A stretch of 64,000 nt of DNA. Source: Apoderus coryli. Its lineage: Eukaryota > Arthropoda > Insecta > Coleoptera > Attelabidae. Made by a program: the position numbers and the translations under genes. The stretch is from contig OU452206.1 of NCBI GenBank assembly GCA_911728435.2, positions 496,001-560,000 of the forward strand. Direction: 5' to 3'. This document shows positions 2,239 through 39,168 of the stretch, in pieces. Under the pieces are notes generated by a model, which saw nothing but the letters and a program-made list of their open reading frames with translations, ran no database searches and was not told where the DNA came from. Numbering within the stretch: position 1 is the first letter of the stretch; every line of letters begins with the position of its first letter.

Positions 2239-2278
2239 AAAATTTAATAATTATAGTGTGCGAATTAACTCTACGAAT

Positions 2279-14340: not shown

Positions 14341-14942
14341 ACATAGAAAACTAATTAGGTATATGGGTATTAATTATTAAATATAAGTATAAATAAAGTA
14401 TAACCTAATATAAAAAGAAGTATAATTCCTATCCCAGCTGTTGCTGACTGACAATTACACGCCTAACCTTAAAATATAAAAATTAACAATTTTTAATATA
14501 ATGTCACAAGAGATGAACTCTATGACAATCAGAGAGGCACTAGCGTACCCTGATATTAGTAAACTTATAAGGACGTAAGTATAATATATATATAGAACCC
14601 TGCTGTACCTTACAGTAGGTTAGAATTATCTATTAAACAGTATACAATAATGTTTAACAGGTATGACAAGGGGGACAATGTACAATTAATAGCAATAGTT
14701 TCCCTACGGTCACTATGTCGTGGCCATCACGCTATCATGACGTCATGAAATGCTAACAATTATGCACGACAAGGTACTTCCTAAAGATACTTAAAACAAC
14801 AAATATGTGTATAAAACAATTATAAACAAATAAGCATAAATAAACGGGAAAACTGATACGAATGTGAACAAAACTTATAAGTAACACCACGTATATAGTC
14901 TATATTTACGTAAATTAGAGTGAATGCATATCACTTATCTGC

Positions 14943-17900
14943 ACCGGTGTGAAAATAGCAGCTAAAGATAGCAGCCAAAATATCCGAACAAGCACGAACG
15001 CCAGTAGCCTCGCACTATATGCGCGCGCACATCGTATCGAGCCAGCACTCATGACGGGCACGAACAACTTGCCACGTGGTAATAAACCTATAATTTACAG
15101 ACAAATAACTTATTTAAAAAATAATTCATAAAATTAATAATGAAGTTAATATTTTGCAAAATATTGGACCAAAAGACAGTTTGAAGGTGGATGGTGAAAA
15201 AATATATTTTAATTTAAGCAAAACAGTATTGGGTAACAAATTACGTACCCATTTGCATTAGTACAATAATTTAACTAAAAATTAGTGGAAGTGACATAAT
15301 AGGGCGTTAAAAGATAGCAGCCAAAACCGTCTTAGTGGGGAAAACTTAATAACTCCGAAACTATTGACCCTGCCATATCGGGCATTCAGAGTGTGTTAGA
15401 TAACAACATGGGCAATATAACGTATATACTCATTATCACTTACAGGCCGTCGCAGGGGCGTACTAAAGCTTTAAAAGATTGCAGCCAAAACCCTCCTGAT
15501 GGTGAAAAATTAATTACTCCGAAACTATTGAGCCTGCCATATCGGGCATTCAGAGTGGGTTAGATAACAACATGGGCAATATAACGTATATACTCACTAT
15601 CACTTACAGGCCGTCGCAGGGGCGTACTAAAGCTTTAAAAGATAGCAGCCAAAACCCTCCTGATGGTGAAAAATTAATAACTCCGAAACTGTAGAGCCTG
15701 CCATATCGGACTTTCAGAGTATGTTAGATAACAACATGGGCAATATAACGTATATACCCACTATCACTTACAGGCCGTTGCAGGGGCGTACTAAAGCTTT
15801 AAAAGATAGCAGCCAAAACCCTCCTGATGGTGAAAAATTAATAACTCCGAAACTGTAGAGCCTGCCATATCGGACTTTCAGAGTATGTTAGATAACAACA
15901 TGTGCAATAAAACGTACATACTCACTATCACTTACAGGCCGTCGCAGGGGCGTACTAAAGCTTTAAAAGATAGCAGCCAAAACCCTCCTGATGGTGAAAA
16001 ATTAATAACTCCGAAACTGTAGAGCCTGCCATATCGGACTTTCAGAGTATGTTAGATAACAACATGTGCAATAAAACGTACATACTCACTATCACTTACA
16101 GGCCGTCGCAGGGGCGTACTAAAGCTTTAAAAGATAGCAGCCAAAACCCTCCTGATGGTGAAAAATTAATAACTCCGAAACTATTGAGCCTGCCATATCG
16201 GGCTTTCAGAGTGGGTTAGATAACAACATGGGCAATATAACGTATATACTCACTATCACTTACAGGCCGTCGCAGGGGCGTACTAAAGCTTTAAAAGATA
16301 GCAGCCAAAACCCTCCTGATGGTGAAAAATTAATAACTCCGAAACTGTAGAGCCTGCCAATCGGACTTTCAGAGTATGTTAGATAACAACATGGGCAATA
16401 TAACGTATATACCCACTATCACTTACAGGCCGTCGCAGGGGCGTACAAAAGCTTTAAAAGATAGCAGCCAAAACCCTCCTGATGGTGAAAAATTAATAAC
16501 TCCGAAACTGTAGAGCCTGCCATATCGGGCTTTCAGAGTATGTTAGATAACAACATGGGCAATATAACGTATATACTCACTATCACTTACAGGCCATCGC
16601 AGGGGCGTACTAAAGCTTTAAAAGATAGCAGCCAAAACCCTCCTGATGGTGAAAAATTAATAACTCCGAAACTATTGAGCCTGCCATATCGGGCTTTCAG
16701 AGTGGGTTAGATAACAACATGGGCAATATAACGTATATAACCACTATCACTTACAGGCCGTCGCAGGGGCGTACTAAAGCTTTAAAAGATAGCAGCCAAA
16801 ACCCTCCTGATGGTGAAAAATTAATAACTCCGAAACTGTAGAGCCTGCCATATCGGACTTTCAGAGTATGTTAGATAACAACATGGGCAATATAACGTAT
16901 ATACTCACTATCACTTACAGGCCGTCGCAGGGGCGTACTAAAGCTTTAAAAGATAGCAGCCAAAACCCTCCTGATGGTGAAAAATTAATAACTCCGAAAC
17001 TATTGAGCCTGCCATATCGGGCTTTCAGAGTGGGTTAGATAACAACATATGCAATAAAACGTACATACTCACTATCACTTACAGGCCGTCGCAGGGGCGT
17101 ACTAAAGCTTTAAAAGATAGCAGCCAAAACCCTCCTGATGGTGAAAAATTAATAACTCCGAAACTGTAGAGCCTGCCATATCGGACTTTCAGAGTATGTT
17201 AGATAACAACATGTGCAATAAAACGTACATACTCACTATCACTTACAGGCCGTCGCAGGGGCGTACTAAAGCTTTAAAAGATAGCAGCCAAAACCCTCCT
17301 GATGGTGAAAAATTAATAACTCCGAAACTATTGAGCCTGCCATATCGGGCTTTCAGAGTGGGTTAGATAACAACATGGGCAATATAACGTATATACTCAC
17401 TATCACTTACAGGCCGTCGCAGGGGCGTACTAAAGCTTTAAAAGATAGCAGCCAAAACCCTCCTGATGGTGAAAAATTAATAACTCCGAAACTGTAGAGC
17501 CTGCCAATCGGACTTTCAGAGTATGTTAGATAACAACATGGGCAATATAACGTATATACCCACTATCACTTACAGGCCGTCGCAGGGGCGTACAAAAGCT
17601 TTAAAAGATAGCAGCCAAAACCCTCCTGATGGTGAAAAATTAATAACTCCGAAACTGTAGAGCCTGCCATATCAGGCTTTCAGAGTATGTTAGATAACAA
17701 CATGGGCAATATAACGTATATACTCACTATCACTTACAGGCCATCGCAGGGGCGTACTAAAGCTTTAAAAGATAGCAGCCAAAACCCTCCTGATGGTGAA
17801 AAATTAATAACTCCGAAACTATTGAGCCTGCCATATCGGGCTTTCAGAGTGGGTTAGATAACAACATGGGCAATATAACGTATATAACCACTATCACTTA

Positions 17901-20900
17901 CAGGCCGTCGCAGGGGCGTACTAAAGCTTTAAAAGATAGCAGCCAAAACCCTCCTGATGGTGAAAAATTAATAACTCCGAAACTGTAGAGCCTGCCATAT
18001 CGGGCTTTCAGAGTATGTTAGATAACAACATGGGCAATATAACGTATATACTCACTATCACTTACAGGCCGTCGCAGGGGCGTACTAAACCTTTAAAAGA
18101 TAGCAGCCAAAACCCTCCTGATGGTGAAAAATTAATAACTCCGAAACTATTGACCCTGCCATATCGGGCATTCAGAGTGGGTTAGATAACAACATATGCA
18201 ATAAAACGTACATACTCACTATCACTTACAGGCCGTCGCAGGGGCGTACTAAAGCTTTAAAAGATAGCAGCCAAAACCCTCCTGATGGTGAAAAATTAAT
18301 AACTCCGAAACTATTGAGCCTGCCATATCGGACTTTCAGAGTATGTTAGATAACAACATGGGCAATAAAACGTACATACTCACTATCACTTACAGGCCGT
18401 CGCAGGGGCGTACTAAAGCTTTAAAAGATAGCAGCCAAAACCCTCCTGATGGTGAAAAATTAATAACTCCGAAACTATTGAGCCTGCCATATCGGGCTTT
18501 CAGAGTAGGTTAGATAACAACATGGGCAATATAACGTATATACTCACTATCACTTACAGGCCGTCGCAGGGGCGTACTAAAGCTTTAAAAGATAGCAGCC
18601 AAAACCCTCCTGATGGTGAAAAATTAATAACTTCGAAACTATTGAGCCTGCCATATCCGGCTTTCAGAGTGGGTTAGATAACAACATGGGCAATATAACG
18701 TATATACTCACTATCACTTACAGGCCGTCGCAGGGGCGTACTAAAGCTTTAAAAGATAGCAGCCAAAACCCTCCTGATGGTGAAAAATTAATAACTCCGA
18801 AACTATTGACCCTACCATATCGGGCTTTCAGAGTGGGTTAGATAACAACATGGGCAATAAAACGTACATACTCACTATCACTTACAGGCCGTCGCAGGGG
18901 CGTACAAAAGCTTTAAAAGATAGCAGCCAAAACCCTCCTGATGGTGAAAAATTAATAACTCCGAAACTGTAGAGCCTGCCATATCGGGCTTTCAGAGTAT
19001 GTTAGATAACAACATGGGCAATATAACGTATATACTCACTATCACTTACAGGCCGTCGCAGGGGCGTACTAAAGCTTTAAAAGATAGCAGCCAAAACCCT
19101 CCTGATGGTGAAAAATTAATAACTCCGAAACTATTGAGCCTGCCATATCGGGCTTTCAGAGTGGGTTAGATAACAACATGGGCAATATAACGTATATACT
19201 CACTATCACTTATAGGCCGTCGCAGGGGCGTACTAAAGCTTTAAAAGATAGCAGCCAAAACCCTCCTGATGGTGAAAAATTAATAACTCCGAAACTGTAG
19301 AGCCTGCCATATCGGACTTTCAGAGTATGTTAGATAACAACATGGGCAATATAACGTATATACCCACTATCACTTACAGGCCGTCGCAGGGGCGTACTAA
19401 AGCTTTAAAAGATAGCAGCCAAAACCCTCCTGATGGTGAAAAATTAATAACTCCGAAACTGTAGAGCCTGCCATATCGGACTTTCAGAGTATGTTAGATA
19501 ACAACATGGGCAATATAACGTATATACCCACTATCACTTACAGGCCGTCGCAGGGGCCTACAAAAGCTTTAAAAGATAGCAGCCAAAACCCTCCTGATGG
19601 TGAAAAATTAATAACTCCGAAACTGTAGAGCCTGCCATATCGGACTTTCAGAGTATGTTAGATAACAACATGGGCAATATAACGTATATACCCACTATCA
19701 CTTACAGGCCGTCGCAGGGGCGTACGTCGCAGGGGCGTACAAAAGCTTTAAAAGATGGCAGCCAAAACCCTCCTGATGGTGAAAAATTAATAACTCCGAA
19801 ACTGTAGAGCCTGCCATATCGGACTTTCAGAGTATGTTAGATAACAACATGGGCAATATAACGTATATACCCACTATCACTTACAGGCCGTCGCAGGGGC
19901 CTACAAAAGCTTTAAAAGATAGCAGCCAAAACCCTCCTGATGGTGAAAAATTAATAACTCCGAAACTGTAGAGCCTGCCATATCGGACTTTCAGAGTATG
20001 TTAGATAACAACATGGGCAATATAACGTATATACCCACTATCACTTACAGGCCGTCTCAGGGGCGTACGTCGCAGGGGCGTACAAAAGCTTTAAAAGATA
20101 GCAGCCAAAACCCTCCTGATGGTGAAAAATTAATAACTCCGAAACTGTAGAGCCTGCCATATCGGGCTTTCAGAGTGTGTTAGATAACAACATGGGCAAT
20201 ATAACGTATATACCCACTATCACTTACAAGCCGTCGCAGGGGCGTACTAAAGCTTTAAAAGATAGCAGCCAAAACCCTCCTGATGGTGAAAAATTAATAA
20301 CTCCGAAACTATTGAGCCTGCCATATCGGGCGTTCAGAGTGGGTTAGATAACAACATGGGCAATATAACGTATATACCCACTATCACTTACAGGCCGTCG
20401 CAGGGGCGTACTAAAGCTTTAAAAGATAGCAGCCAAAACCCTCCTGATGGTGAAAAATTAATAACTCCGAAACTATTGAGCCTGCCATATCGGGCTTTCA
20501 GAGTGGGTTAGATAACAACATGGGCAATATAACGTATATACTCACTATCACTTACAGGCCGTCGCAGGGGCGTACTAAAGCTTTAAAAGATAGCAGCCAA
20601 AACCCTCCTGATGGTGAAAAATTAATAACTCCGAAACTGTAGAGCCTGCCATATCGGACTTTCAGAGTATGTTATATAACAACATGGGCAATATAACGTA
20701 TATACCCACTATCACTTACAGGCCGTCGCAGGGGCGTACAAAAGCTTTAAAAGATAGCAGCCAAAACCCTCCTGATGGTGAAAAATTAATAACTCCGAAA
20801 CTGTAGAGCCTGCCATATCGGGCTTTCAGAGTATGTTAGATAACAACATGGGCAATATAACGTATATACTCACTATCACTTACAGGCCGTCGCAGGGGCG

Positions 20901-21290
20901 TACTAAAGCTTTAAAAGATAGCAGCCAAAACCCTCCTGATGGTGAAAAATTAATAACTCCGAAACTATTGAGCCTGCCATATCGAGCTTTCAGAGTGGGT
21001 TAGATAACAACATGGGCAATATAACGTATATACTCACTATCACTTACAGGCCGTCGCAGGGGCGTACTAAAGCTTTAAAAGATAGCAGCCAAAACCCTCC
21101 TGATGGTGAAAAATTAATATCGGGCATTACGAGTGGGTTAGATGACAACAGATTCAATATAACGTATATACTCACCATCACTTACAGGCCGTCCCAGTGA
21201 CCTACTATAGCTTTAAAAGGTAGCAGCAACTTAATAACTCCGAAACTATGGAACCTGCCACATTAATTTTTTCGAATAAGTTAGAATCAT
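14943..21290 (+). repeat. Left terminal inverted repeat of the giant transposon
   Basis: 14943-15300 is a unique outer segment, matched in inverse at about 37710-38065 with very few differences (one inside the stretch about 15190-15240). The rest is the tandem array. The inner edge decays at 21120-21290, where monomers lose similarity (a truncated unit, then ACCTGCCACATTAATTTTTT). The right TIR has a matching degenerate inner monomer at about 34940-35010. A 60-codon frame at 14949-15131 occurs in both TIRs but has no recognisable domain. Confidence 0.9.
15300..21250 (+). repeat. Tandem array of a 164-bp monomer, left TIR
   Basis: The word GCAGCC of GATAGCAGCCAAAA recurs at 15481, 15645, 15809, 15973, 16137 and 16301, exactly 164 bp apart, giving about 36 monomers. 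Two alternating variants are visible: ACTGTAGAGCC with ACTTTCAGAGTATG, and ACTATTGAGCC with GCTTTCAGAGTGGG. A marker deletion (GCCAATCGG instead of GCCATATCGG) sits at 16356 and again at 17503. That is 1,147 bp, seven monomers less one base, so blocks of seven have been duplicated. Two monomers near 19720 and 20065 carry an extra partial copy of GTCGCAGGGGCGTAC. Confidence 0.97.
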
Positions 21291-21758
21291 AATGCCTATG
21301 AAAATGCAGCCAAATCACGCAACTACTTATAAAAATAAATAACCCCGAACCAACGGTTCTGCGGCTTTAAAAGGAATTTATTTATTTAAACGCAGAAGAT
21401 AATTATCAATAGCTTGATTTCTACATAATAATAATTATTATTATATATATAATAACATTGACAAGAGTGGGGTGTTTAGTATCAAAATGTTAATGAAATT
21501 ACGCGGATTTTCATAGTGATTTTTTTGAAACTGGTAACAATTAAGTATACTAATATAAACAATATTACGCTTTGTAACTTCTGACTGAAAAGTCTAGTAT
21601 TTCGAATTGATATCTTATCATGGTGTATTTTTTACACGTTGCTCGATAGCATTTGTCCACCTACACTGTTTTATTTGAATGTGTTGTTTACGAGGGCTGT
21701 GTGCTGAAGTTTTGAGGTGACGTTCAGAATTATCTTGGAAGTTCTGATTAACTAAATT

Positions 21759-22940
21759 ATGAATATGGAACGTTATAAATGTTGTAGAAGGGACATTGTT
21801 GGAGTGTATATGTGTGTGACGTGTGGTAACTGTTTTCATAAAGAATGCTCCACAAAATGGAAGGAAATGACTCTACTTGGAAAAAATCGAATTCACTGTT
21901 CAAAAATATGTGCAAGAGATGACAAAATTGGAATCTACGAGGAAATACTGGAAAAGCAAAAATTGCAGATAAACGAGTTACAATCTGAACTTGAGCGAAG
22001 AGATGCCTGTATTTCAAGACTCAGGCGAGAGTCACAGCTATTTATAAATGATGTAGAAGATGCTGAACAATCTTATTCTTCGCAGATTGACACCATGACA
22101 AAAACAATACAGTGCCTAGAGACCAAGCTCGATGAGGCGAAAAAAAATGCAATAAAGAAATCGGATATGGTAAGTGTAAGTACACAAGCTAATTGTAAAA
22201 CATACGTTAAGTCTACGCAAACCCGAAATATTGATAGAAGTATGGCAGTTACCCAGACTGATCGCGTAAAAGTTGTTTCATGTGACATACAAACTGACGA
22301 TTACCCATCATTACAACGGGAGTTTTCACGAATGGGGCAAGTTATTGTAAACCCAATTAACACTAGCGATCACAATGGATCAACAAAGAAGATAACATCA
22401 CATAAGGAAAGAAAAAGGAAGGTTCTGTTACTGGGGGACAGCGTACTGACTGATGTTGCTGATGTGCTCAATGGTGTTGCAGGAGACAGATTCGAGATCT
22501 CTTCAATAATAAAACATAATGCGTGCTTATTTAATGTAGTGGCAAATCTTGAAGAGTTGAGTAGGGATTATGGTGTGAATGATTTTGTGATTATTGGTGG
22601 TGGTATTAGGGATGTTCTGTTGGGTCATACCCCGGATAATAATATTTTGAAATTGTTAGAAAATATCAGCTGCCGAACAAACTTAATAATTTTAACCGTA
22701 CCTATATACTCAAACAATTATTATCTAAATAAGTTGACTGATGTTTATAATATTACTGTTTTTGAATATTTTAAGGATCATGTAGCAAAGAAAAGCATTG
22801 TTTTCTCTAACCTAAATTCGATCATTAGTTCTAAACATTTTATCAACAAGAAAAATCCGAGCCTAATGAGATCTGGTAAGGTGAAGATTGCCCATCATTT
22901 GAAGAATGTTCTGTTTAACAGAAGTAAGTTTTTTCTGTAA
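21759..22940 (+). CDS. LINE ORF1: PHD-like finger, coiled coil and SGNH esterase
   Basis: 393 residues. Residues 1-52 hold a Cys/His cluster (CCRRDI, CVTCGNCFHKEC, HCSKIC) of PHD type. Residues about 58-130 are a coiled coil rich in E, K, L and Q. From about 222 the text KVLLLGDSVLTDVADVL contains the GDS block of SGNH hydrolases, with an FVIIGGGIRD block further on. CR1-clade ORF1 proteins bind RNA and carry such esterases, which may help target membranes or lipids. The start ATG is the first in the frame. ORF1 ends 35 bp inside the ORF2 frame. Confidence 0.82.
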   Translation: MNMERYKCCRRDIVGVYMCVTCGNCFHKECSTKWKEMTLLGKNRIHCSKICARDDKIGIYEEILEKQKLQINELQSELERRDACISRLRRESQLFINDVEDAEQSYSSQIDTMTKTIQCLETKLDEAKKNAIKKSDMVSVSTQANCKTYVKSTQTRNIDRSMAVTQTDRVKVVSCDIQTDDYPSLQREFSRMGQVIVNPINTSDHNGSTKKITSHKERKRKVLLLGDSVLTDVADVLNGVAGDRFEISSIIKHNACLFNVVANLEELSRDYGVNDFVIIGGGIRDVLLGHTPDNNILKLLENISCRTNLIILTVPIYSNNYYLNKLTDVYNITVFEYFKDHVAKKSIVFSNLNSIISSKHFINKKNPSLMRSGKVKIAHHLKNVLFNRSKFFL

Positions 22941-25830
22941 CGACTTAATGGAAAACTCAAAAGTAAATGCTAGCATCATGATATGTAACATACTACACCT
23001 AAATACACAGTGTGTCTCTAATAAATTAAACTTATTTGAATTGTACCTATCTGGAAATTTGGTTCATGTTTTATGTTTAACAGAACATTGGCAATCCGAG
23101 GATAGGATGCAGGGTATTTTTCTGCGAAACTATACTTTGGTGACGTACTTTTGTCGAGTCTTAAATCGTCATGGTGGTACTGCAATTTTTGTGAAAAATG
23201 ATGTATACTCCATGTGTAAGCCGTTAGCTTGTGTAAGTGAGTTTTGTGTTGAGTTGGACTTTGAATGTTCAGCGGTTGTCTATGATAGGGTTGTTTGCGT
23301 TATTACAATTTATCGATCACCCTCTGGTGACATTAACATTTTTTGTTCTAGACTGGTAGCGCTTTTGACTGAGGTGTCAAGTAAGTTCGATGTGTTGCTT
23401 ATATGTGGCGATCTTAACATTGATGAAATGGGTGGACGATGCCAATACAATGTCAGGGTTTTGAGGGATGTGATTGACTCGTTTGGCTTGTCCTCGCTTG
23501 TCGAATCTCCGACTCGTGTCGCGAGTGTTGCTTCTAGAACAGTCTTATCGAGAATTGACTATGTTATAACAAATTCACCAGAATCTACACAGGTAACAAA
23601 TTTCAATATTGGGTTCTCAGATCATTATGCTCAATGGGCAAAAATTTCATATAATTCTTTTAAATCTTTAGTTCATAGTAGAGGTGAGGCAAGTTATAGG
23701 CAATTTAGCGATTCTGCAATCAATGAATTTCGATTTCATTTTGGGCAGTTTGACATTGACAACTTAGCGAGCATGAGTTTTGACGACGCATTCGAGAGAT
23801 TCTGGAAGAGACTTGAGTGGAGTTTTAATATATCTTTTCCTCTGAGATCTATGAAGTCTTCTTCCTCCAGGTCAAAATTCAAAATATTTTTCTCAGATGA
23901 GTTGCAGCGTAGATATTTAGAACTACAAAACATTAATTGGTTAAGGCAACGCATTCAAGATGAGGAATTACATCATACGTATAGGGAACTCAGGGGGGAT
24001 GTCAGTAGACGGGTGTCATATGAAAAGGGCTTAATATTCAATAATTATTTGGCGCATTCTAGCAGCAAGTCAAGGGCTGTTTGGAATGTCTTTAGAGAGC
24101 ATACTGGTAAGAAACGTAAAACACATAATCCACTAACTCTGGTTCAGGGCAATAATATAATTAGGAATCCATCTGAAATAGCTGCTGCTTTTTGTACATA
24201 TTTTGCAACTGTCGTGACTGATAAATTAGATGCGCACTTTAATGGTAATCTCCCTACAACCTGTACTGTAGGGTCCCTAAACTCTAGGAGTATGTTTTTT
24301 TATCCGGTATTACCTCATGAGGTGGCAGGGGTGATATCGAAGTTTCCAAATAAGAAATCTACTGGCATTGACAGCATACCCATTAAGTTAATAAAAAATT
24401 CTTCTGATGTGCTTTGTCCTGTATTGGCAGAATTAACAAATATGTCAGTGCGGTGTGGTCACTTCCCAGAACACCTTAAGAGGGCGCTAATAGTACCAAT
24501 CTATAAAAAGGGAGACAGCAGTGCTGTTGAAAATTATCGTCCCATAGCACTGCTGAGTTCTGTATCAAAGATTATCGAGAAGATTGTGGCAGAGAGAATA
24601 TTTGAGTTTTTGAACGCTTGTAACGTGTTGAGCGGATGTCAACACGGTTTTAGACAAGGGTTTTCAACCGAAACGTGTACCAGCGAATTTATCCAGAAAA
24701 TGCACGATCTATCGGATAGTGGTTCGTACGTGGTCGCACTTTTATTTGACCTGTCCAGCGCATTTGATGTGGTGGATAAAAATTTCTTATGCCAAAAACT
24801 GGAAAATATTGGCATACGCGGACCCATAAACGAATGGATACGTTCTTATTTATCCAACAGGAAGATCGCTGTAAAAATTGAGTCTGTGATATCAGTTTTT
24901 CAGGACCTTGATTTAGGGACTCCTCAAGGGAGCATACTTGGTCCACTGCTTTTCCTTCTTTACGTTAACGATCTTCCTATGAATATCACGCACGGCTCTC
25001 TTTACATGTATGCTGATGACACTACAATATTATTGTCCGACAGAGAACCGGATATCCTCAAGCAAAAAATCGATGTCACACTTCAAGAGTTTAAAAAATG
25101 GTGTCGAAATAATCGCCTCATTATCAACTTCGACAAAACAGTCGCTTTGCAATTTAGTAGATATAGGACTCTTGACCTTCAAATTAGTTTTGATAACATT
25201 CAACTAACCTTGTCAGAGTCTGTCAAACTTTTGGGAGTGTATGTTGATCCAGAGTTGAGCTGGATATCGCAAGTAGACCACCTTTGTAAAAATTTGAACA
25301 GACACTTGTATGTGTTGTATTCTCTGAAGGATGTTATGAGTTTGGATGCATTGATTTCGGTTTACTATGCCTTGGTTTACTCTGCAATTTCATACGGTAT
25401 AGTCGTCTGGGGTAGGAGTGCAGAAATTGGCAGGGTTTTTGTACTCCAAAAGAGAGCAATCAGGTGTATTTTTAAACTGCCCTATAGGACTACGTGCAGG
25501 GACACTTTCAAGAGCAACGGTTTGCTTACAGTTCCCTCAATTTACCTGTACAAATTGCTCTTATATACATTTAGACATAAGAATTCTATACCTACACGCG
25601 GAAATAATCACGATTACTTTACTAGGGGACGAAATGAATTGCATCTACCTCGCCCAAGACACGAATTTTTTAAAAAATCGCCAAAGTATTCTGGTCGCTA
25701 TTACTATAATCTACTCCCTGAAGATCTGAAGAACTGCCACTCTGAGACTGAATTCAAAAGAAAATTAAAATTCTTGTTGACCGATGGCGCATTCTATACC
25801 TTGCAGGAATTCACGGCTGCTGTACAGTGA
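22906..25830 (+). CDS. LINE ORF2: APE endonuclease and reverse transcriptase
   Basis: 974 codons with no break. The likely start is the ATG at 22948 (MENSKVNAS), since the first 14 residues overlap ORF1. Endonuclease blocks: LNTQCVSNKL, LCLTEHW, CGDLNIDEM, SRIDYVIT and FSDHYAQW. Reverse transcriptase blocks from about residue 520: PIYKKGDSSAVENYRPIALL, HGFRQGFSTET, LLFDLSSAFDVV, GTPQGSILGPLLFLLYVNDL and the catalytic YADD (about 25009-25020). There is a C-terminal Cys/His-poor domain. All key blocks look intact, so the copy may be competent. Confidence 0.93.
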   Translation: MFCLTEVSFFCNDLMENSKVNASIMICNILHLNTQCVSNKLNLFELYLSGNLVHVLCLTEHWQSEDRMQGIFLRNYTLVTYFCRVLNRHGGTAIFVKNDVYSMCKPLACVSEFCVELDFECSAVVYDRVVCVITIYRSPSGDINIFCSRLVALLTEVSSKFDVLLICGDLNIDEMGGRCQYNVRVLRDVIDSFGLSSLVESPTRVASVASRTVLSRIDYVITNSPESTQVTNFNIGFSDHYAQWAKISYNSFKSLVHSRGEASYRQFSDSAINEFRFHFGQFDIDNLASMSFDDAFERFWKRLEWSFNISFPLRSMKSSSSRSKFKIFFSDELQRRYLELQNINWLRQRIQDEELHHTYRELRGDVSRRVSYEKGLIFNNYLAHSSSKSRAVWNVFREHTGKKRKTHNPLTLVQGNNIIRNPSEIAAAFCTYFATVVTDKLDAHFNGNLPTTCTVGSLNSRSMFFYPVLPHEVAGVISKFPNKKSTGIDSIPIKLIKNSSDVLCPVLAELTNMSVRCGHFPEHLKRALIVPIYKKGDSSAVENYRPIALLSSVSKIIEKIVAERIFEFLNACNVLSGCQHGFRQGFSTETCTSEFIQKMHDLSDSGSYVVALLFDLSSAFDVVDKNFLCQKLENIGIRGPINEWIRSYLSNRKIAVKIESVISVFQDLDLGTPQGSILGPLLFLLYVNDLPMNITHGSLYMYADDTTILLSDREPDILKQKIDVTLQEFKKWCRNNRLIINFDKTVALQFSRYRTLDLQISFDNIQLTLSESVKLLGVYVDPELSWISQVDHLCKNLNRHLYVLYSLKDVMSLDALISVYYALVYSAISYGIVVWGRSAEIGRVFVLQKRAIRCIFKLPYRTTCRDTFKSNGLLTVPSIYLYKLLLYTFRHKNSIPTRGNNHDYFTRGRNELHLPRPRHEFFKKSPKYSGRYYYNLLPEDLKNCHSETEFKRKLKFLLTDGAFYTLQEFTAAVQ

Positions 25831-26107
25831 TTGTTATTGTTTCTGATTCCTACTTATTTTGGATTTCTTTGTTATTGTGGGTGTGATGTGTGTTATTTTA
25901 TTGTATGTATGTTGGATTAGTGACTGATTTTTGTAATTTGAAGTGTATACAAATTTATTGTTTTTAATATGTGACAAAGACTGTTATAAGTACTTATATA
26001 TGTTTGTATTATGGTCTAACTTATATTGACATTTAATTTATGCGTCTATGTAATAGGTGTTGTAATCTTGACGTGTCTATGTACAGAAATGTACTATTTT
26101 TTGACAG

Positions 26108-26140
26108 AATAAATATTATTATTATTATTATTATTATTAT
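26108..26140 (+). terminator. Poly(A) signal and ATT-repeat tail of the LINE
   Basis: AATAAA at 26108-26113 is followed by about nine ATT repeats, a typical 3' end for this LINE class. Confidence 0.8.
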
Positions 26141-29100: not shown

Positions 29101-29184
29101 AAGTTGCACAATTTTTTCTGAAATTTACCAACTTGCTACATTTATCCCTATATAAACAGTCTTGGACACACTCACTACTCCTGA
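26141..29184. other. AT-rich non-coding interior of the giant transposon
   Basis: 3 kb without a credible gene. It contains a TTAGG tract (27573-27660). It also holds an imperfect inverted repeat around 27995-28140 (CCTTCCTTTTCGAGACACAGG against CCTTGTATCTCGAAAAAGAAGG), followed by a CACCCTGTATA word, probably a small MITE relic. The word GTAGGTA and similar TAGGTA words recur. Confidence 0.6.
27573..27660 (+). repeat. Short interstitial TTAGG telomere-type tract
   Basis: Four perfect TTAGG units in a row (27630-27649) sit inside a longer degenerate stretch of TTAGGTTA and CTAGGTTA words. TTAGG is the ancestral insect telomere repeat. The tract is far too short to be a telomere. Confidence 0.75.
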
Positions 29185-29649
29185 TTAATAATTGTAGCAA
29201 ATTAAACACATATTATTATGCACGAAGTCAGTTTGACCAGAATATGAACATTTGATGTGGACCATCCGGGAACAGAAATTACATTTCAAAAATGCATCAA
29301 AAGCATCTCTATTACAAACCAAACATTTGGATTTCATATCTTTAGATTTTTTAAGAATCAGGTGTTTTAAATAAATTCGAAACTCATCCATATTGCAGTA
29401 GGTATCTAGAGGTGTATTTTCACACAGCAGTTTGAAAATATATATGATATATGGGCCACAATTATAGCTATCATTTTGCAAAATATGCACAAACAATTTT
29501 GGAGTTAAAGGTTCATTACAAATAAAATCAGAATTGATGTCTTTGTAGTATAACAGAAATTTTTCAAATTTTTTTAAGTACATTTGATTTTTTTCTTCCG
29601 TAGACCCCATTGGATCAATAAAACTAAATGTTTTTTTTAAGAAAATCAA
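29185..29649 (-). CDS. Giant-transposon protein, C-terminal part: Ulp1 protease end and second PHD-like finger
   Basis: A 154-codon frame that continues the 29624-32113 frame after a 1-nt shift at a run of eight T (29631-29638). FIDPMGS provides the Asp (D12) and QNDSYNCGPY the Gln (Q58) and the catalytic Cys (C64) of a Ulp1/C48 SUMO-type protease; its His is in the upstream frame. Residues 109-151 form a C4HC3 finger: C109, C112, C123, C126, H131, C134, C148 and C151. The first ATG is unlikely to be a true start. Ulp1 domains occur in several Mutator and KDZ transposons, where their role is unknown. Confidence 0.8.
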   Translation of the reverse strand: MIFLKKTFSFIDPMGSTEEKNQMYLKKFEKFLLYYKDINSDFICNEPLTPKLFVHILQNDSYNCGPYIIYIFKLLCENTPLDTYCNMDEFRIYLKHLILKKSKDMKSKCLVCNRDAFDAFLKCNFCSRMVHIKCSYSGQTDFVHNNMCLICYNY

Positions 29650-32113
29650 TAATAACTAAACAAAAATGGTTTCTATTGACAACTATGGGCATAGCTAATA
29701 AATCTAACTTGATATTAATTTGTTTTAAGAAATATTCAGAGTAGTTTTCGTTTTCAAATACTTGTGTAGCAAGCGTTTCTTCTATGATATGATATTTTTC
29801 TTTCCAGTTTATGATATTCATAACTAGACTTACTAGAACACCAGTCAGCCAATTTTTGTGTGAAAGGGTATCAAAGTCAGTTAATAATATTTCTTTAATA
29901 ATAAACTGTGTATTATCAAATGTAGCTACAATATAATCCCTCCCAATATCTCTATAATAGTTAATATCGTCAACCAAACCGTTCTCAAAGCAATTAATTT
30001 TCTTAAGTATTGTCCACTTTCGGTCCCGAGGAAGATGATTTTCACTTGGTGATACTAAGAGTGGTAAATAAAAAAAGTAATAAAACTCCTGTAAACTTTG
30101 TATCATATTTGCCCAAAACTTAAAATCTCTTAGTATTCTTTGAATTTTGATGTCATTATTAGTGTATATGACGAAGTCGCACCATGGTCTGTTAACTAAT
30201 TCCAGCAGACCTTGAATTTGGAAATAATACGAATGTGAGGGTTTAAGATTTCCATCTTTATCAAGGTAGTTTAATTTTTGATAATGAATTTTATTATTTT
30301 TCAGTGAATATGGGCACTTGACTTCAATAATTCCATCATTATTTATAAGGCCACCAGGCGATCCTGCCAAGAAACTGTATTTTGTGTGAACATATAATCC
30401 ACAGTTTTTCACTGGATTTTGTGATTTTAAAATGTAGGCTTCAATAGCCTTATTTTCATTAGCTATACCGTAGTTAACGGCAGAAATATTTGAGATATCT
30501 CTCTGATTCAGTAACTGTTGACTAAGTTTTACTTTAGCATCATAATTTTTTGATTTAACAATTTTGCCAAAGTTTGAACTGGTCAATCTTTTTTTCCGTT
30601 CTTCTTTCCAAATTGTGGAATTTCTTTGTTCCCGTGTGGATCTTTCAATGGAATTAATTTGTTCAATATTTTTTGATTGTATAATTTGATTTAAGAATTT
30701 TTCACACTTTTCTTTTAAATTATTCTGACCAACACCATTCCCAATTTCAACTTCATTCTGTGGGGAATTGTTGCAAAATTTGCATAAAAATCTTCCAGTA
30801 TATGATTTGTTGTTTTCTGGGTCATCACATACTTGATGAATCCAAATACTACACAAATCACACTGTACCCAATTGGCAGTGGTATTTAAACGACCAGACC
30901 CACAATAAAGACATATATCAACGTCTAAGGAAACTTCTTTAGCTACAGATTCTTCCAATTTTTTAAAACGTACGTTACGAAGAGCTTGGCCGTTAAAAGT
31001 GTTTGATATTTTTTTTACTTTTCTTTGCCAAGTTTCCTCACACGTTTGTTCAACATGAGGATCCTTTATGATTTTTGTTAAGTTTTTTTTGGGAATACGC
31101 AATAAATATTCTTTGTAAATGCTTAAAACATTTGCGCGACTTTTCCTTAAGAATCTGGACGCTTTCAAATTTTTTTCACTTTTTAAAATGTTAAGTTTAA
31201 CATTTCCGAAATAATTTTCCACGTAACAATTACTGAATCTATTCTGGCCATACTCTGCTCGAATTAAAAGAGCTGTCCACAAAGAACAGTATGGCAAATA
31301 CTTATCCATTACCAAGTTAAAAAACTCAGGACAATAAAACGAATTTAATGTTTTATTGTTTATATTGTGTTGATAGGATTCAGTAATCTCTACATGGAGA
31401 TTATGTCGCGTAATTAATGATTTGAAGTAATGATAAAATGGGCTGCATTGATATAAAGATGTATTTTCAAAGTCAAAATCAATATTGTTGATATCACAGA
31501 TATCAGGGTATGTTAAACTGGGTGCAGTTAGAGTAAATAATGTAGCACGTGCTTTTGAAACAGCCTTACAAGTGTTATCTGTATTTAACAAAATATATAT
31601 AGCTTCAAACCATGTTGAAATTGCAGCAATATGGTCCGCCTGAATACAAGAGGCAAAAGCTGATTTCAGAAAATTTTGCTCAAATTCAGTAGCAAAATAT
31701 TTACTAATGTCTTTGGACACCATTTTCATAAAATGCGCACAACATAGATGTAGTGTAATAAAATCTTTCGGTATTTTTTCCGTACCAACAGTGATATTAT
31801 AACTAAAAATTAAATACTCTTTTAATGAAATATTATTGCAAGCTCTACAAATTCCATGAAGATTTGCAAAGGAAAAGTCACTCACAACCGATCCAAATAA
31901 CGGCCATTTAGCATATTCTTCACAAAAAGATTTGAAATCGTAAAAAATTTGAAAAATGTTTTTGGTTTTGTGACTACTGGAAATCATTTCAAACACTGGA
32001 AATATTCTACTGTTATTTAAAGGAGTTACAGCTGAGTACAAGTAAACCCTTTTATCCAGCTTGTCAGGTTTTCTAACCACATTTCCCGTAGCATCAAAAT
32101 AAATTGTCGGCAA
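29624..32113 (-). CDS. Giant-transposon transposase core with PHD finger, YqaJ nuclease and start of Ulp1
   Basis: 829 codons. Residues 1-310 fit a MULE/NOF-like DDE core: D7 in YFDATG, D79 in VVSDFSFANLHG, the C/H block LHLCCAHFMK (121-130) and E299 in NCYVENYFGNVK. Residues 401-447 are a clean PHD finger (C401, C404, C418, C421, H426, C429, C444, C447). Residues about 495-690 match YqaJ-type PD-(D/E)xK recombinase nucleases: RLTSSNFG, E553, GSPGGLI (584-590), E597-V-K599 and YYFQIQGLLEL. The usual Asp of SPDG is Gly587, one base from GAT, so the nuclease may be dead. Residues 745-829 start the Ulp1 fold, with H816 in VVNRNHFCLVIID. The frame begins inside the protein, not at a true start. 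Assignments are by motif reading. Confidence 0.82.
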   Translation of the reverse strand: MPTIYFDATGNVVRKPDKLDKRVYLYSAVTPLNNSRIFPVFEMISSSHKTKNIFQIFYDFKSFCEEYAKWPLFGSVVSDFSFANLHGICRACNNISLKEYLIFSYNITVGTEKIPKDFITLHLCCAHFMKMVSKDISKYFATEFEQNFLKSAFASCIQADHIAAISTWFEAIYILLNTDNTCKAVSKARATLFTLTAPSLTYPDICDINNIDFDFENTSLYQCSPFYHYFKSLITRHNLHVEITESYQHNINNKTLNSFYCPEFFNLVMDKYLPYCSLWTALLIRAEYGQNRFSNCYVENYFGNVKLNILKSEKNLKASRFLRKSRANVLSIYKEYLLRIPKKNLTKIIKDPHVEQTCEETWQRKVKKISNTFNGQALRNVRFKKLEESVAKEVSLDVDICLYCGSGRLNTTANWVQCDLCSIWIHQVCDDPENNKSYTGRFLCKFCNNSPQNEVEIGNGVGQNNLKEKCEKFLNQIIQSKNIEQINSIERSTREQRNSTIWKEERKKRLTSSNFGKIVKSKNYDAKVKLSQQLLNQRDISNISAVNYGIANENKAIEAYILKSQNPVKNCGLYVHTKYSFLAGSPGGLINNDGIIEVKCPYSLKNNKIHYQKLNYLDKDGNLKPSHSYYFQIQGLLELVNRPWCDFVIYTNNDIKIQRILRDFKFWANMIQSLQEFYYFFYLPLLVSPSENHLPRDRKWTILKKINCFENGLVDDINYYRDIGRDYIVATFDNTQFIIKEILLTDFDTLSHKNWLTGVLVSLVMNIINWKEKYHIIEETLATQVFENENYSEYFLKQINIKLDLLAMPIVVNRNHFCLVIIDFLKKNI

Positions 32114-33558
32114 TACTTTTTGATCCTTTTTTGCATATCTAGCACAGTTAGCTGTTCTTTGCTAAATACTTTCACACAGAAAGGTAAACAAACCTCTTGC
32201 AAATATTCCGAATGGCTTCTTTGCATTTGGATGAGATCAAAAATATCATCTGCATTTATGTCTAGATGCGACAGTCCCTCAGACCGCATTTTTCTAAAAT
32301 TGGAATCTGATTTGATATTCTGCAAATTGCCCAATGATATTAATTGACTGTTTGCTTCTAGAATCTTCAATCTTTTTATTTCTGAGGGTAGTTTTCCTTG
32401 AAAGCTTTGTTTAAATATATCTCTTTCGACGCCCTTAACATAAGCAGTAATTTTCTGATTATGACTAAAATTTAATGAACTACTGTAAACATGAACGGTT
32501 CTTGTATTCTGATCTAGTGAAAATATAAATTTTTTGCAATTTTTATGTTTACAAATGGCGTAAATTTTAATTGTTTGATTTTTTAAATATTTTGTATATT
32601 TGAATACTAAACTGCAGGTATTATTTACATATTGCGACATATAATGCCTAAAATAATAAGGAAAGTAATATTTATTTAACTTTCCATCTTTTGTAAATAA
32701 ATATCTACAAATGTTTTCTACTACTATAAAGGAGTCTTCGAGTATAAAACAGTTTTTAAAGTTTACTTTTGGAAGAGTATCAATATTTTTAGTACCTTGT
32801 GGAAGAACCCCAAAATAATTGTTAACCGGCAAATTTTGAAATTCAGGACAAACATCGATTTTTTCAGGAGTTGGGTATTTTATTTTCAATGAATCATTTG
32901 ACATATTATTTTTTTTATCATCTTTCAAATCAATAGATATATTTATTTGATTTGGACTTTTGCATACACTACTTTTCGAATTCACATTGTTTGGAGATAA
33001 ACTGCAATTTGAAAGAATGGGTGATAGGTTACTATTTAAACTGTCGAGGGAGGAATTGCTGTGAAAAGGAGTAGAACACACAATGTTTTTAAAATTATTA
33101 GTTTTAAAATATAATCTGCAACAATATCGCATATATTTTCGATTCTTTAATGTATTTTTTTTATTTAAACTTCTACACATCTTGAGATATAACCCATTAT
33201 TTTTATTATTATTATTATTATTATACATAACTTCTTTATAAGTTATATGGTTTGACTGTAAAAACTCAAAAATAGAATATTTTAAATTATTCTGCCTTTT
33301 AGAAATAAACTGATTTTCTATATTATTTATAAACGACGATTCATTTCTTTTTAAGAATTGTAATATTGTACTAGCATACTTAAATTTACGATCTTTTACT
33401 TCTTCAATTAACTGTTTCGCTACATTTTTGTCGGTTTTAAAATTATTGAAATCATTTGAATTCATATTAGGATATATTTTATACATTGCATTTAAAATGG
33501 TATTAAACATTTTCATTGATTTGTTGCAATTATTTTGATCCATAATAGGTATTACCAA
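32026..33558 (-). CDS. Giant-transposon protein, N-terminal part with Cys/His module
   Basis: 510 codons, likely starting at MDQNNCNKSMKM (ATG at 33543). The first 230 residues are low-complexity, rich in Asn, Ser and Lys. Around residues 340-385 AICKHKNCKKF, then VHVYSSSLNFSH, gives a C-x4-C...H arrangement like the FLYWCH/WRKY-type zinc modules found at the N-terminus of MULE transposases. A helical region (GKLPSEIKRLKILEANSQ) follows. The true protein continues into the 29624-32113 frame. A 1-nt shift at a run of six T (32127-32132) is the likely cause, and the last 30 or so codons here are out-of-frame text. Promoter elements upstream were not resolved. Confidence 0.72.
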   Translation of the reverse strand: MVIPIMDQNNCNKSMKMFNTILNAMYKIYPNMNSNDFNNFKTDKNVAKQLIEEVKDRKFKYASTILQFLKRNESSFINNIENQFISKRQNNLKYSIFEFLQSNHITYKEVMYNNNNNNKNNGLYLKMCRSLNKKNTLKNRKYMRYCCRLYFKTNNFKNIVCSTPFHSNSSLDSLNSNLSPILSNCSLSPNNVNSKSSVCKSPNQINISIDLKDDKKNNMSNDSLKIKYPTPEKIDVCPEFQNLPVNNYFGVLPQGTKNIDTLPKVNFKNCFILEDSFIVVENICRYLFTKDGKLNKYYFPYYFRHYMSQYVNNTCSLVFKYTKYLKNQTIKIYAICKHKNCKKFIFSLDQNTRTVHVYSSSLNFSHNQKITAYVKGVERDIFKQSFQGKLPSEIKRLKILEANSQLISLGNLQNIKSDSNFRKMRSEGLSHLDINADDIFDLIQMQRSHSEYLQEVCLPFCVKVFSKEQLTVLDMQKRIKKYCRQFILMLREMWLENLTSWIKGFTCTQL

Positions 33559-34930
33559 TAGGTATTTGAATTTCTTCGAAATACTGCTTTCCTGAATAAG
33601 TACACTGGGCTGCTTGGAATGTATCAGTTGGTAATGTAATCAGGTAAACTAGAGTAAAGTCAAATGAAACAATGTCAAAAAATAATAATGTTTTAAAATA
33701 AAAAGTTAGCACCGCAAATAAAGGCAAATGAAATTAAAACTTAGTCTAATAATTATAGGTATTATATTAAAAGTTACTTACATGTAAAATAGTAGTAGGT
33801 TCAATACAATCTCAGCCTATAAACTAAAATATTTATGAGACACCTCTGGTAATAAAATGTCTTTAACAGCCAAATGAGGTATTGACACGTTAAGAGATTC
33901 TTACATGTATATGAAAATTATTGTATTTGGAAAAATATAGTTCTTGTCTCAAAAGCTTCTAATTGGAAAATGAAGGCAAATTATTTTAAAATAAAAATGT
34001 ATGTGACTAGTCCCAACTCAAATTTATACCTATAAGAACACATTTTATGTAGGCTCAATAAATGCATTGTCGGAATATCATCCTAATCCTAATTTTCCTA
34101 CCAACCTATCCGCCTATAACGCAAAGTCGCCAAAAGCTACAAAAGCGCGATTCCTTTATGTCGAATATGCCGCTGCGCCGCGTCAACTGAGATTCTGTCC
34201 ATTTTAGGTACGTACCTATACCACCGACAAAAGTTATTCTCTTTGCACGGTGTTTATACAGGTTACCATACTATACATGTAAAATATCTTCGATGAACTT
34301 TGATAGTAATTTTAGGTATATTATAGTTTTATTCAAACAATATAATAATGCCTTTATTGCAATATAATTACAAAAGGCGCTGAAGATGTGCATCCTATTT
34401 TAACTTATACAGTGTGAATCATGACTAACGGGACAATTCGGAAAATTACGAAACAAAAAGATGAAGGTAATAATGTTAGTTCACATTCTACAGGGTGTCC
34501 TGAATTGAATATATAAATTTTAATAAAATAGATACTCGCGACTTCATTTTCTGACACGCAGTACCCTGTATATTTTGATTGGAAAATATGCTAAGTGTAA
34601 TTTTTAACGATTTCCAATAAGCGTAAAACGTAACAGGTAGGTATAGGAAATAATAATACCTACAAATTCTATATATTTTTTTAATGTACTGTCAAATTAT
34701 AAGGTGAAACCGAAGTAGTTCGTATAATAAACTGTAGGTCGTGATTCACCCTGTATATTTAGGCCATTAGATAACATATTAGTTGTACCTTGTACCTGAA
34801 ATTGATTTATTAAATATAGCCAAGTTAAGAAGAATATGAATTTTTCTAAAATTTCCGTTCATTTAAATTGCGATCTACAATAGATTGCATTATATTTTTC
34901 AGCAACAAGATTGTGTTGGGTGGGCGATAC
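33559..34930. other. Upstream non-coding region of the transposase gene
   Basis: AT-rich with one GC-richer patch at about 34110-34200, a plausible promoter area for the minus-strand gene though no TATA/Inr pair was pinned down. At 34491-34753 a 263-bp stretch starts CAGGGTG, ends CACCCTG and is flanked by TA on both sides, so it may be a mariner-type MITE (weak evidence). Confidence 0.5.
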
Positions 34931-37900
34931 ACTGCGACCGCCTGTAAGTGATAATGAGTTATAGGTTATATTTCCAATTTTGTTATCTAACGTATTCTGA
35001 AAAATTAATGTAGCAGGCTCAATAGTTTCGGAGTTATTAATTTTTCACCATCAGGAGGGTTTTGGCTGCAATCTTTTAAAGCTTTAGTACGCCCCTGCGA
35101 CGGCCTGTAAGTGATAGTGAGTATATACGTTATATTGCCCATGTTGTTATCTAACCCACTCTGAAAGCCCGTTATGGCAGGCTCAATAGTTTCGGAGTTA
35201 TTAATTTTTCACCATCAGGAGGGTTTTGGCTGCTATCATTTAAAGCTTTAGTACGCCCCTGCGACGGCCTGTAAGTGATAGTGAGTATATACGTTATATT
35301 GCCCATGTTGTTATCTAACCCACTCTGAAAGCCCGATATGGCAGGCTCAATAGTTTCGGAGTTATTAATTTTTCACCATCAGGAGGGTTTTGGCTGCTAT
35401 CTTTTAAAGCTTTAGTACGCCCCTGCGACGGCCTGTAAGTGATAATGAGTATATACGTTATATTGCCCATGTTGTTATCTAACACACTCTGAATGCCCGA
35501 TATGGCAGGGTCAATAGTTTCGGAGTTATTAATTTTTCACCATCAGGAGGGTTTTGGCTGCTATCTTTTAAAGCTTTAGTACGCCCCTGCGACGGCCTGT
35601 AAGTGATAGTGAGTATATACGTTATATTGCCCATGTTGTTATCTAACCCACTCTGAATGCCCGATATGGCAGGCTCAATAGTTTCGGAGTAATTAATTTT
35701 TCACCATCAGGAGGGTTTTGGCTGCAATCTTTAAAGCTTTAGTACGCCCCTGCGACGGCCTGTAAGTGATAATGAGTATATACGTTATATTGCCCATGTT
35801 GTTATCTAACACACTCTGAATGCCCGATATGGCAGGGTCAATAGTTTCGGAGTTATTAATTTTTCACCATCAGGAGGGTTTTGGCTGCTATCTTTTAAAG
35901 CTTTAGTACGCCCCTGCGACGGCCTGTAAGTGATAGTGAGTATATACGTTATATTGCCCATGTTGTTATCTAACCCACTCTGAAAGCCCGATATGGCAGG
36001 CTCAATAGTTTCGGAGTTATTAATTTTTCACCATCAGGAGGGTTTTGGCTGCTATCTTTTAAAGCTTTAGTACGCCCCTGCGACGGCCTGTAAGTGATAA
36101 TGAGTATATACGTTATATTGCCCATGTTGTTACCTAACATACTCTTAAAGCCCGATATGGCAGGCTCTACAGTTTCGGAGTTATTAATTTTTCACCATCA
36201 GGAGGGTTTTGGCTGCTATCTTTTAAAGCTTTTGTACGCCCCTGCGACGGCCTGTAAGTGATAGTGGGTATATACGTTATATTGCCCATGTTGTTATCTA
36301 ACATACTCTGAAAGTCCGATATGGCAGGCTCTACAGTTTCGGAGTTATTAATTTTTCACCATCAGGAGGGTTTTGGCTGCTATCTTTTAAAGCTTTAGTA
36401 CGCCCCTGCGACGGCCTATAAGTGATAGTGGGTATATACGTTATATTGCCCATGTTGTTATCTAACATACTCTGAAAGTCCGATATGGCAGGCTCAATAG
36501 TTTCGGAGTTATTAATTTTTCACCGTCAGGAGGGTTTTGGCTGCTATCTTTTAAAGCTTTTGTACGCCCCTGCGACGGCCTGTAAGTGATAGTGAGTATG
36601 TACGTTTTATTGCCCATATTGTTATCTAACCCACTCTGAAAGCCCGATATGGCAGGGTCAATAGTTTCGGAGTTATTAATTTTTCACCATCAGGAGGGTT
36701 TTGGCTGCTATCTTTTAAAGCTTTAGTACGCCCCTGCGACGGCCTGTAAGTGATAGTGAGTATATACGTTATATTGCCCATGTTGTTATCTAACCCACTC
36801 TGAATGCCCGATATGGCAGGCTCAATAGTTTCGGAGAAATTAATGTTTCACCATCAGGAGGGTTTTGGCTGCAATCTTTAAAGCTTTAGTACGCCCCTGC
36901 GACGGCCTGTAAGTGATAATGAGTATATACGTTATATTGCCCATGTTGTTACCTAACATACTCTTAAAGCCCGATATGGCAGGCTCTACAGTTTCGGAGT
37001 TATTAATTTTTCACCATCAGGAGGGTTTTGGCTGCTATCTTTTAAAGCTTTTGTACGCCCCTGCGACGGCCTGTAAGTGATAGTGGGTATATACGTTATA
37101 TTGCCCATGTTGTTATCTAACATACTCTGAAAGTCCGATATGGCAGGCTCTACAGTTTCGGAGTTATTAATTTTTCACCATCAGGAGGGTTTTGGCTGCT
37201 ATCTTTTAAAGCTTTAGTACGCCCCTGCGACGGCCTGTAAGTGATAGTGAGTATGTACGTTTTATTGCCCATATTGTTATCTAACCCACTCTGAAAGCCC
37301 GATATGGCAGGGTCAATAGTTTCGGAGTTATTAATTTTTCACCATCAGGAGGGTTTTGGCTGCTATCTTTTAAAGCTTTAGTACGCCCCTGCGACGGCCT
37401 GTAAGTGATAGTGAGTATATACGTTATATTGCCCATGTTGTTATCTAACCCACTCTGAATGCCCGATATGGCAGGCTCAATAGTTTCGGAGTAATTAATT
37501 TTTCACCATCAGGAGGGTTTTGGCTGCAATCTTTTAAAGCTTTAGTACGCCCCTGCGACGGCCTGTAAGTGATAATGAGTATATACGTTATATTGCCCAT
37601 GTTGTTATCTAACACACTCTGAATGCCCGATATGGCAGGGTCAATAGTTTCGGAGTTATTAAGTTTTCCCCACTAGGACGGTTTTGGCTGCTATCTTTTA
37701 ACGCCCTATTACGTCACTTCCACTAATTTTTAGTTAAATTATTGTACTAATGCAAATGGGTACGTAATTTGTTACCCAAAACTGTTTTGCTTAAATTAAA
37801 ATATATTTTTTCACCATCCACCTTCAAACTGTCTTTTGGTCCAATATTTTGCAAAATATTAACTTCATTATTAATTTTATGAATTATTTTTTAAATAAGT

Positions 37901-38065
37901 TATTTGTCTGTAAATTATATGTTTATTACCACGTGGCAAGTTGTTCGTGCCCGTCATGAGCGCTGGCTCGATACGATGTGCGCGCGCATATAGTGCGAGG
38001 CTACTGGCGTTCGTGCTTGTTCGGATATTTTGGCTGCTATCTTTAGCTGCTATTTTCACACCGGT
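34930..38065 (-). repeat. Right terminal inverted repeat of the giant transposon
   Basis: Inverse of the left TIR: a 164-bp tandem array of about 17 monomers (about 34960-37700) and an outer unique segment (about 37710-38065) ending CTATTTTCACACCGGT. A variant monomer (GCTGCAATCTTTAAAGC) recurs at 35721 and 36868, 1,147 bp apart, the same seven-monomer period as in the left array. The array is less than half the length of the left one. Confidence 0.95.
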
Positions 38066-39168
38066 CTTATCTGCGGAGCCCGGATCTAGCGTGGGCTCAG
38101 TCCTATCCTATATGAGAATCTGGAAATTTCAGGTAGGCACCAATACCTCACACAGCCAGTCTATCATACCATCCAATACAGCATCCACTTAGGTGGGATA
38201 CAAACTAAATTCTACCACTATTGCTCAAAGCTACCACAGTTGCACCAAAACCATAGCAGACCGTAAACCGGTACTTTACGTACAAAGCAGTTGTAGCCAC
38301 AAAGCAAGAGAAAGAATAAAAAGGCCTAAAAGCAGATATAAAGGATCCTATATAGCACAAGAGTTATACTGAAAGCGTCTACGATGTTCTATAATTATGA
38401 CCTACCTTAGATGTTAGATGGCCTTATGTGAATTGTCGGAATACCAACACTTAATTGCAACGAGAAGTTACCAAACATAAAACCATATATCAAATATGTG
38501 TGGAGCACTATAAATACCAAATATTATAACGAAAGTGCCTCCACAATTACTGGCTTCACAAAACTTGAGTTTAACTTCCTCGTTACTGTCTGGATCCACA
38601 CCCGAAATTGTAATGGAGATTTATCCTGTCAGAAGGTTGGGTTTAACCGCGAAATGAGACAGTATTGATACATCCTCCTGTCGAATCAGCGACATGACAG
38701 CCGATCAGCAAAGGCAAAACAATAACATTGGGATACTGTCTGGATATTGTAAATACACAAAAGTAAACAAACACGAGCCGATATTGAATAACTCAACTCT
38801 ACAAAGAGGAGTGATTGGAGGTAGGATTTCTGTTATATTCCATTAATTTTACCCACTAAAGACAACCCTAATTGCCCTGTGTTCTATTTTAGCTGTACCA
38901 AAGCAACGAGCAGATCATCGGAGCACTATTCAATGGTACTTGCGGCCGGTTATTATGGATAGGCATATGGATTATGCGCTCCAATTGAACAAAATAATAA
39001 ATCAAGGATACAATAATTAAATGGAAATTCTATATTAATAGGAAAAGACAAGAATGTAGGGTTTATACGTTTCATGAGGTGATACCATTTGATGTTATGT
39101 GTTAAGCGACAATTATGATTAAAGAAAAATATTAAGCGGAGGTAGGTGGTATTTTTAGCAACGTAACA

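Follow-up and report, generated by a model that had tools for sequence, protein, structure and literature searches.

Can a satellite move through a genome as part of a transposon? The question is raised by a stretch of 64,000 nucleotides from the beetle Apoderus coryli (contig OU452206.1, positions 496,001–560,000; hereafter, the window), in which arrays of a 164-bp repeat stand in opposite orientations on either side of a transposase-like gene. The first-pass annotation of the window read this arrangement as a foldback, Mutator-like transposon with satellite arrays for ends. With a probability of about 0.93, we consider it to be a recently mobile cut-and-paste DNA transposon, related to Rehavkus and Mutator, the inverted ends of which comprise a unique 364-bp tip followed by arrays of the 164-bp satellite (Table 1).

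The element occupies positions 14943–38065 and measures 23,123 bp in the window copy, including a nested insertion. Its tip, ACCGGTGTG, starts at 14943, and the complement of ACCGGTGTG closes the right end at 38065. The two ends, the first letters of which are ACCGGTGTGAAAATAGC, are inverted relative to each other and their outer 364 bp align without gaps, with 360 of 364 positions identical; the longest listed inverted arm is 1189 nt at 98%. Directly outside lies a perfect 9-bp duplication, CTTATCTGC, which occurs twice in the window and nowhere else on either strand (a chance match of a 9-mer between the left and right flanks has a probability of about 2.6e-5). Inverted ends and direct repeat both stand as first annotated, as do the long inverted repeats built mainly of 164-bp monomers and the gene inside them, which runs on the minus strand in three open frames. 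The surroundings are themselves mobile-element sequence: matches to a Gypsy-type pol gene end at 13911 and restart at 39212. The element therefore lies within an additional sequence of about 2.2 kb that interrupts pol, and direct insertion into pol is unsupported. A direct repeat of 310 bp (10975–11281 and 40919–41228, 96.1% identical) looks like the long terminal repeats (LTRs) of the surrounding Gypsy.

We searched the 428-Mb assembly holding the window (G000) with the 17-base tip, allowing up to two mismatches, and obtained 121 forward and 114 reverse matches, compared with 16 and 9 for a reversed control. From the 100 places listed we used 80, which form 40 head-to-head pairs no more than 33 kb apart (the window included), leaving out 20 unpaired places and those beyond the listed ones. 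A perfect 9-bp duplication lies directly outside 34 of these 40 pairs; one further pair has one mismatch, one has two and four have no duplication. When left and right flanks of different copies were paired instead, one mismatch or fewer was found in 9 of 1560 mispairings, compared with 35 of the 40 true pairs. Among listed pairs of at least 4.6 kb, 33 of 36 carry perfect duplications, and all 33 sequences are distinct; above 20 kb, the count is 9 of 9. The check proposed at first annotation thus turned up further copies with 9-bp duplications, the opposite of copies whose boundaries depart from ACCGGTGTG. Left tips average 99.2% identity among the 36 listed copies of at least 4.6 kb, so the family has probably spread recently. 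Two pairs of 2.5 kb have diverged ends in which neither the tip motif described below nor an array was seen, and they may lie outside the family.

Besides the window copy, ten copies of 5 kb or more were read whole (together, the 11 large copies), as were four of 1.2–2.5 kb. Arrays of differing length, internal deletions and nested insertions account for the size differences among them, and many copies are internal deletion derivatives. That such copies are segmental duplications or foldback artefacts of assembly, rather than insertions, is extremely improbable. Inverted arrays are prone to assembly error, and both frame breaks in the window gene fall at runs of A, but no two of the 40 listed copies have flanks alike at 80% over 50 bp, and 34 of them have perfect duplications of their own. 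Moreover, the interior segments of sister copies are 92–100% identical to the window, and internal deletion junctions are common to copies at different sites. The element has thus inserted at many sites, and movement at full length may be inferred.

Is the satellite part of what moves? The 11 large copies all contain arrays, which make up 32–79% of their length. The arrays lie inside the duplicated boundaries, which bears out the suggestion that the satellite belongs to a mobile element. A 17-bp motif in the tip, AAAGATAGCAGCCAAAA, links the unique ends to the arrays: allowing one mismatch, it has 55 matches in the window (2 in the tips and 53 in the arrays), all within the element and in constant orientation across tip and monomers, with none in 100 shuffles. 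We considered it very improbable that an independent genomic satellite was captured or neighboured by a shorter transposon, or that arrays expanded secondarily in a few copies. Array length does vary widely, which speaks for such an origin. Against it, in all ten sister copies of 5 kb or more that were read whole, 345–347 bp separate the tip motif from the first monomer motif at either end, with spacings of mostly 164 bp beyond it, and the first monomer motif falls at 367–369 in 70 of 72 ends of the 36 listed copies of at least 4.6 kb. At the remaining two ends, both of them right ends (C10:8991205 and C25:6518139), it falls at 338. These two copies are both exactly 4,659 bp long, with different flanks and a right first monomer 30 bp closer to the tip, and are perhaps a fixed-length subfamily.

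The arrays themselves are uniform in unit and variable in number. Cut at an anchor outside the motif, 538 of 556 monomers from the 11 large copies are exactly 164 bp long, and sampled monomers are 96.2% identical between elements compared with 96.6% within one arm. Arm-specific homogenisation was not found: 249 of 1000 label shuffles gave a within/between difference as large as that observed. The largest arm holds about 87 monomers, and arrays reach about 14 kb. Three copies at three sites have in common a deletion junction joining window positions 30072 and 34040, and they contain 30, 41 and 142 motif sites (up to two mismatches, tips counted). Array length therefore changes between copies of one lineage, and may do so before, during or after a jump. 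In the window, 15-bp tandem duplications of CGTCGCAGGGGCGTA (19710–19740 and 20053–20083) occur, and two monomers are 179 bp long.

We also asked whether any part of the monomer is conserved more strongly than the 17-bp motif, and two tests gave no support for ranking the motif first. The longest run without variation among 51 window monomers is GCAGCCAAAACC, the length of which is equalled by 62% of column shuffles, and 2 of the 17 motif columns are variable (p 0.09). Among 538 monomers, the motif is exact in 447, 53 of 164 windows are as conserved and it ranks 65 of 164, the lowest-diversity window being GCAGCCAAAACCCTCCT. Because many windows are conserved to this degree, we only infer that the transposase binds the motif.

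The three frames of the window gene together match seven relatives of 1434–1493 amino acids (P0001, P0002, P0004–P0006, P0137 and P0138); P0008 and P0138 are named as coming from Ceutorhynchus assimilis. A distant relative, P0139 (2534 amino acids, E 2.9e-19), has PHD and Ulp1 matches in Pfam. An open version of the gene exists in the assembly. The sister copy C18:15552467 (L104), 23,217 bp long with a perfect duplication, has a gene region 99.5% identical to that of the window, which reads as a single open frame of 1482 codons, counted from stop to stop, with the first Met at 33. The 32.7-kb copy C14:16261071 is 99.8% identical in the gene region and repeats the three-frame pattern, and the second break is read in one frame by 4 of 6 other copies spanning it. 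The L104 frame and these four copies rule out programmed frameshifting as a general need. Sampled stretches of three more copies (C10:15000473, C18:11219613 and C7:33856506) follow the order of the gene region; in C16:5578813, 3 of 4 samples resemble neither the interior nor the satellite. The window copy is the only one of the 11 large copies with a near-complete gene; seven retain parts of the 3′ end and three retain none. Outside the beetle, viral contigs contained no exact match to a satellite 20-mer, and a transposase profile matched one viral contig, in the exonuclease part only; of 93 candidate stretches from prokaryote genomes, it matched none.

Earlier described as a five-module protein, the product is indeed a multi-module transposase; we count six modules, two of them weakly supported. 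The DDE core has a fold resembling ISCth4, IS256-like, and a C-x-H motif, and a DDE core with this motif defines Mutator-like elements (MULEs). The Pfam MULE model matched neither the window protein nor the open sister protein, and may not cover this branch, so the Mutator-like assignment, which agrees with the first reading, rests on fold and conserved residues. In the exonuclease of the window copy, the Asp of the SPDG motif is changed to Gly.

Table 1. Features of the satellite-ended transposon and its insertion site (window positions)
Feature	Position	Strand	Remarks
Left target-site duplication CTTATCTGC	14934–14942		Exact match with right copy
Left terminal inverted repeat, unique 364-bp part	14943–15306	+	360/364 vs right
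17-bp tip motif AAAGATAGCAGCCAAAA	14964–14980	+	Recurs once per satellite monomer
Left 164-bp satellite array, 35.3 copies	15307–21119	+	Tandem-repeat unit 164 bp
Nested non-LTR retrotransposon, ~4.67 kb	21448–26117	+	RVT_1 2.3e-33; missing from sister copies
Transposase gene, three open frames	29185–33639	-	Frame broken twice at A-runs
C-terminal zinc finger, C1-like (weak)	29248–29361	-	E 2.9e-4, below cut-off in window; 0.0059 in sister
Ulp1 (C48) protease, split by second frame break	29350–29977	-	Limits mapped from sister protein; Pfam 1.1e-8 there
YqaJ / lambda-type exonuclease	30035–30673	-	1e-15 in open sister copy
PHD finger	30773–30913	-	Pfam E 3.4e-5 (1.5e-5 in open sister copy)
DDE catalytic core, Mutator/IS256 type	31097–32116	-	Fold and conserved residues
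WRKY-GCM1-like predicted DNA-binding domain (weak)	32437–32748	-	
Right 164-bp satellite array, 16.9 copies, inverted	34932–37701	-	Tandem-repeat unit 164 bp
Right terminal inverted repeat, unique 364-bp part	37702–38065	-	360/364 vs left
Right target-site duplication CTTATCTGC	38066–38074		Exact match with left copy

To which family does the element belong? Here and below, known elements are compared by their published descriptions. Rehavkus elements of arthropods and annelids have 9-bp duplications and ends of 26–400 bp; they encode a PHD finger, and a minisatellite precedes their 3′ end (PMC6446971). The present element has the 9-bp duplication (perfect in 34 of 40 listed pairs), a unique terminal repeat of 364 bp before its arrays, an arthropod host and, in L104, a single open reading frame (ORF) with a PHD finger (in the window that frame is broken twice); the minisatellite precedes the terminal repeat at both ends, whereas that source names the 3′ end alone. 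It also has the long tandem-repeat inverted ends, varying in length between copies, that characterize Foldback elements. A Phantom-type Mutator foldback, as represented by Tm1 of root-knot nematodes, is a very improbable alternative. FLYWCH, a domain of Phantom transposases, is a WRKY-GCM1-type fold, as is the domain predicted at the N terminus here. In Tm1, the duplications measure 8–10 bp, the ends are composite and built of tandem repeats, and a FLYWCH domain lies at the N terminus of the transposase (PMC3169594), and a minisatellite after the transposase ORF is listed for aphid Phantom as well (PMC6446971). However, the Tm1 transposase is a 496-amino-acid protein with FLYWCH and MULE domains, both unmatched in Pfam here, whereas the present protein has about 1450 amino acids with PHD, YqaJ and Ulp1 modules; and PHD finger, 9-bp duplication and minisatellite are together listed as Rehavkus traits (PMC6446971).

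Placed with Rehavkus, the element has a close counterpart. In Tribolium castaneum, the inverted ends of Rehavkus-1_TC, an element of 9.5 kb (Repbase 2006), contain the 164-bp satellite TCsat23 (PMC10218199). Rehavkus-1_TC by description is also like the present element in its 9-bp duplication, PHD finger and beetle host. It differs in scale: its ends hold mostly five and eight monomers, with no TCsat23 stretch of more than nine in the Tribolium assembly (PMC10218199), whereas here sizes reach 32.7 kb and one arm holds about 87 monomers. Complete arthropod MULEs, for which Rehavkus serves as an outgroup, measure 1.4–10.0 kb (PMC13359780). Thus, the view that such an element was not known as described holds for its scale and its open giant copy and fails for its kind: the kind is already known, and what is new is the scale, the open giant copy and the signs of recent movement. 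Exonuclease and Ulp1 modules, or elements near the present size, were not found in the available sections of the Rehavkus literature (PMC6446971, PMC10218199, PMC13359780, PMC4298943 and PMC4438587); the words YqaJ and Ulp1 are missing from the main texts of PMC6446971 and PMC13359780, and a literature search linking either to transposases returned nothing relevant, judged by title.

Other foldback elements show parts of the same design. FB/NOF of Drosophila melanogaster has 9-bp duplications and tandem-repeat foldback ends, by description similar to those here except that its repeats are short. Tetris of Drosophila virilis has 8–10 bp duplications and long inverted repeats, the latter containing tandem repeats of about 220 bp that are a source of satellite DNA and that have a 37-bp stretch in common with the outer domain; unlike the present family, with its full-length transposase genes and arrays of about 14 kb, its inverted repeats reach at most 1,735 bp and no coding copy was found (PMC4079207). 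The Mutator/Foldback element Tm1 of Meloidogyne resembles the present element in 9-bp duplications, variable composite tandem-repeat ends and a Mutator-type transposase, and differs in its repeats of 13–15 bp, its 2.5-kb autonomous element with the 496-amino-acid protein and its description as senescent (PMC3169594). In Galileo, too, the inverted ends are internally repetitive, and they offer the transposase additional binding sites, but that transposase has a THAP domain and the element belongs to the P superfamily (PMC4079207).

The window copy owes part of its length to the nested non-LTR retrotransposon, which has ORF1 at 21756–22940, ORF2 at 22903–25830 and a border within a TAT microsatellite, and which we take to be CR1-like from its ORF1/ORF2 layout. 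In nine of the ten large sister copies that were read whole, window position 21447 is followed directly by 26118 (the tenth does not span the site), so this insertion is later than the transposon, and the element proper measures about 18.5 kb at the window site. The 23-kb size first given therefore holds as the span of this copy; size is not fixed in the family, in which listed pairs range from 1.2 to 32.7 kb. Elsewhere in the interior is a degenerate GTTAG/TTAGG-like tract (27569–27669).

The remainder of the window contains further repeats. At 44449–50422 is an LTR retroelement with terminal direct repeats 98.2% identical, the third ORF of which matches Baculo_F (E 3.4e-9) and is an errantivirus-like envelope gene. 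A Mariner/Tc1-like element (50822–52918; inverted repeats of 378 nt, 97.9%) has an open minus-strand transposase frame of 372 amino acids (51271–52389) with a weak DDE_3 match (E 0.0018). A 1.8-kb repeat (94%) at 1292–3041 and 42633–44449 contains a small ORF that matches F-box weakly. An ORF at 55954–57324 is of the host RNA exonuclease type (REXO1/GOR-like); its best match, at 44% identity across 82% of the query, is in Cylas formicarius and points to a beetle as host, perhaps a weevil-like one.

How might such ends work? The N-terminal WRKY-like domain would bind the motif both in the tip and where it recurs in the monomers, and the DDE core would cut and join. The exonuclease may process freed or broken ends, with annealing between monomers lengthening or shortening the arrays, and the Ulp1 and PHD modules may act on host SUMO control or chromatin. 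We raise, as a tentative and rather unlikely extension, the idea that the arrays are working, selected, extended transposase-loading ends for efficient movement of a cut-and-paste element that measures 20–33 kb and is often satellite for the most part, and that the element's own exonuclease drives their growth and shrinkage by monomer annealing.

Old or non-coding relics, Tetris among them, make it difficult to test whether transposons spread satellites as their passengers. A single assembly with dozens of closely similar copies, an open gene, deletion derivatives, graded array lengths and exact boundaries makes the question testable. The efficacy of DNA transposition is reported to drop above 6 kb of cargo (PMC6431247), and the perfect duplications around all nine listed copies above 20 kb bear on this limit, unless those copies grew after landing. 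Every jump would bring kilobases of satellite to a new site and, if the arrays do serve as loading ends and are driven by the exonuclease, the element would work as an engine for a satellite, generating it as well as dispersing it.

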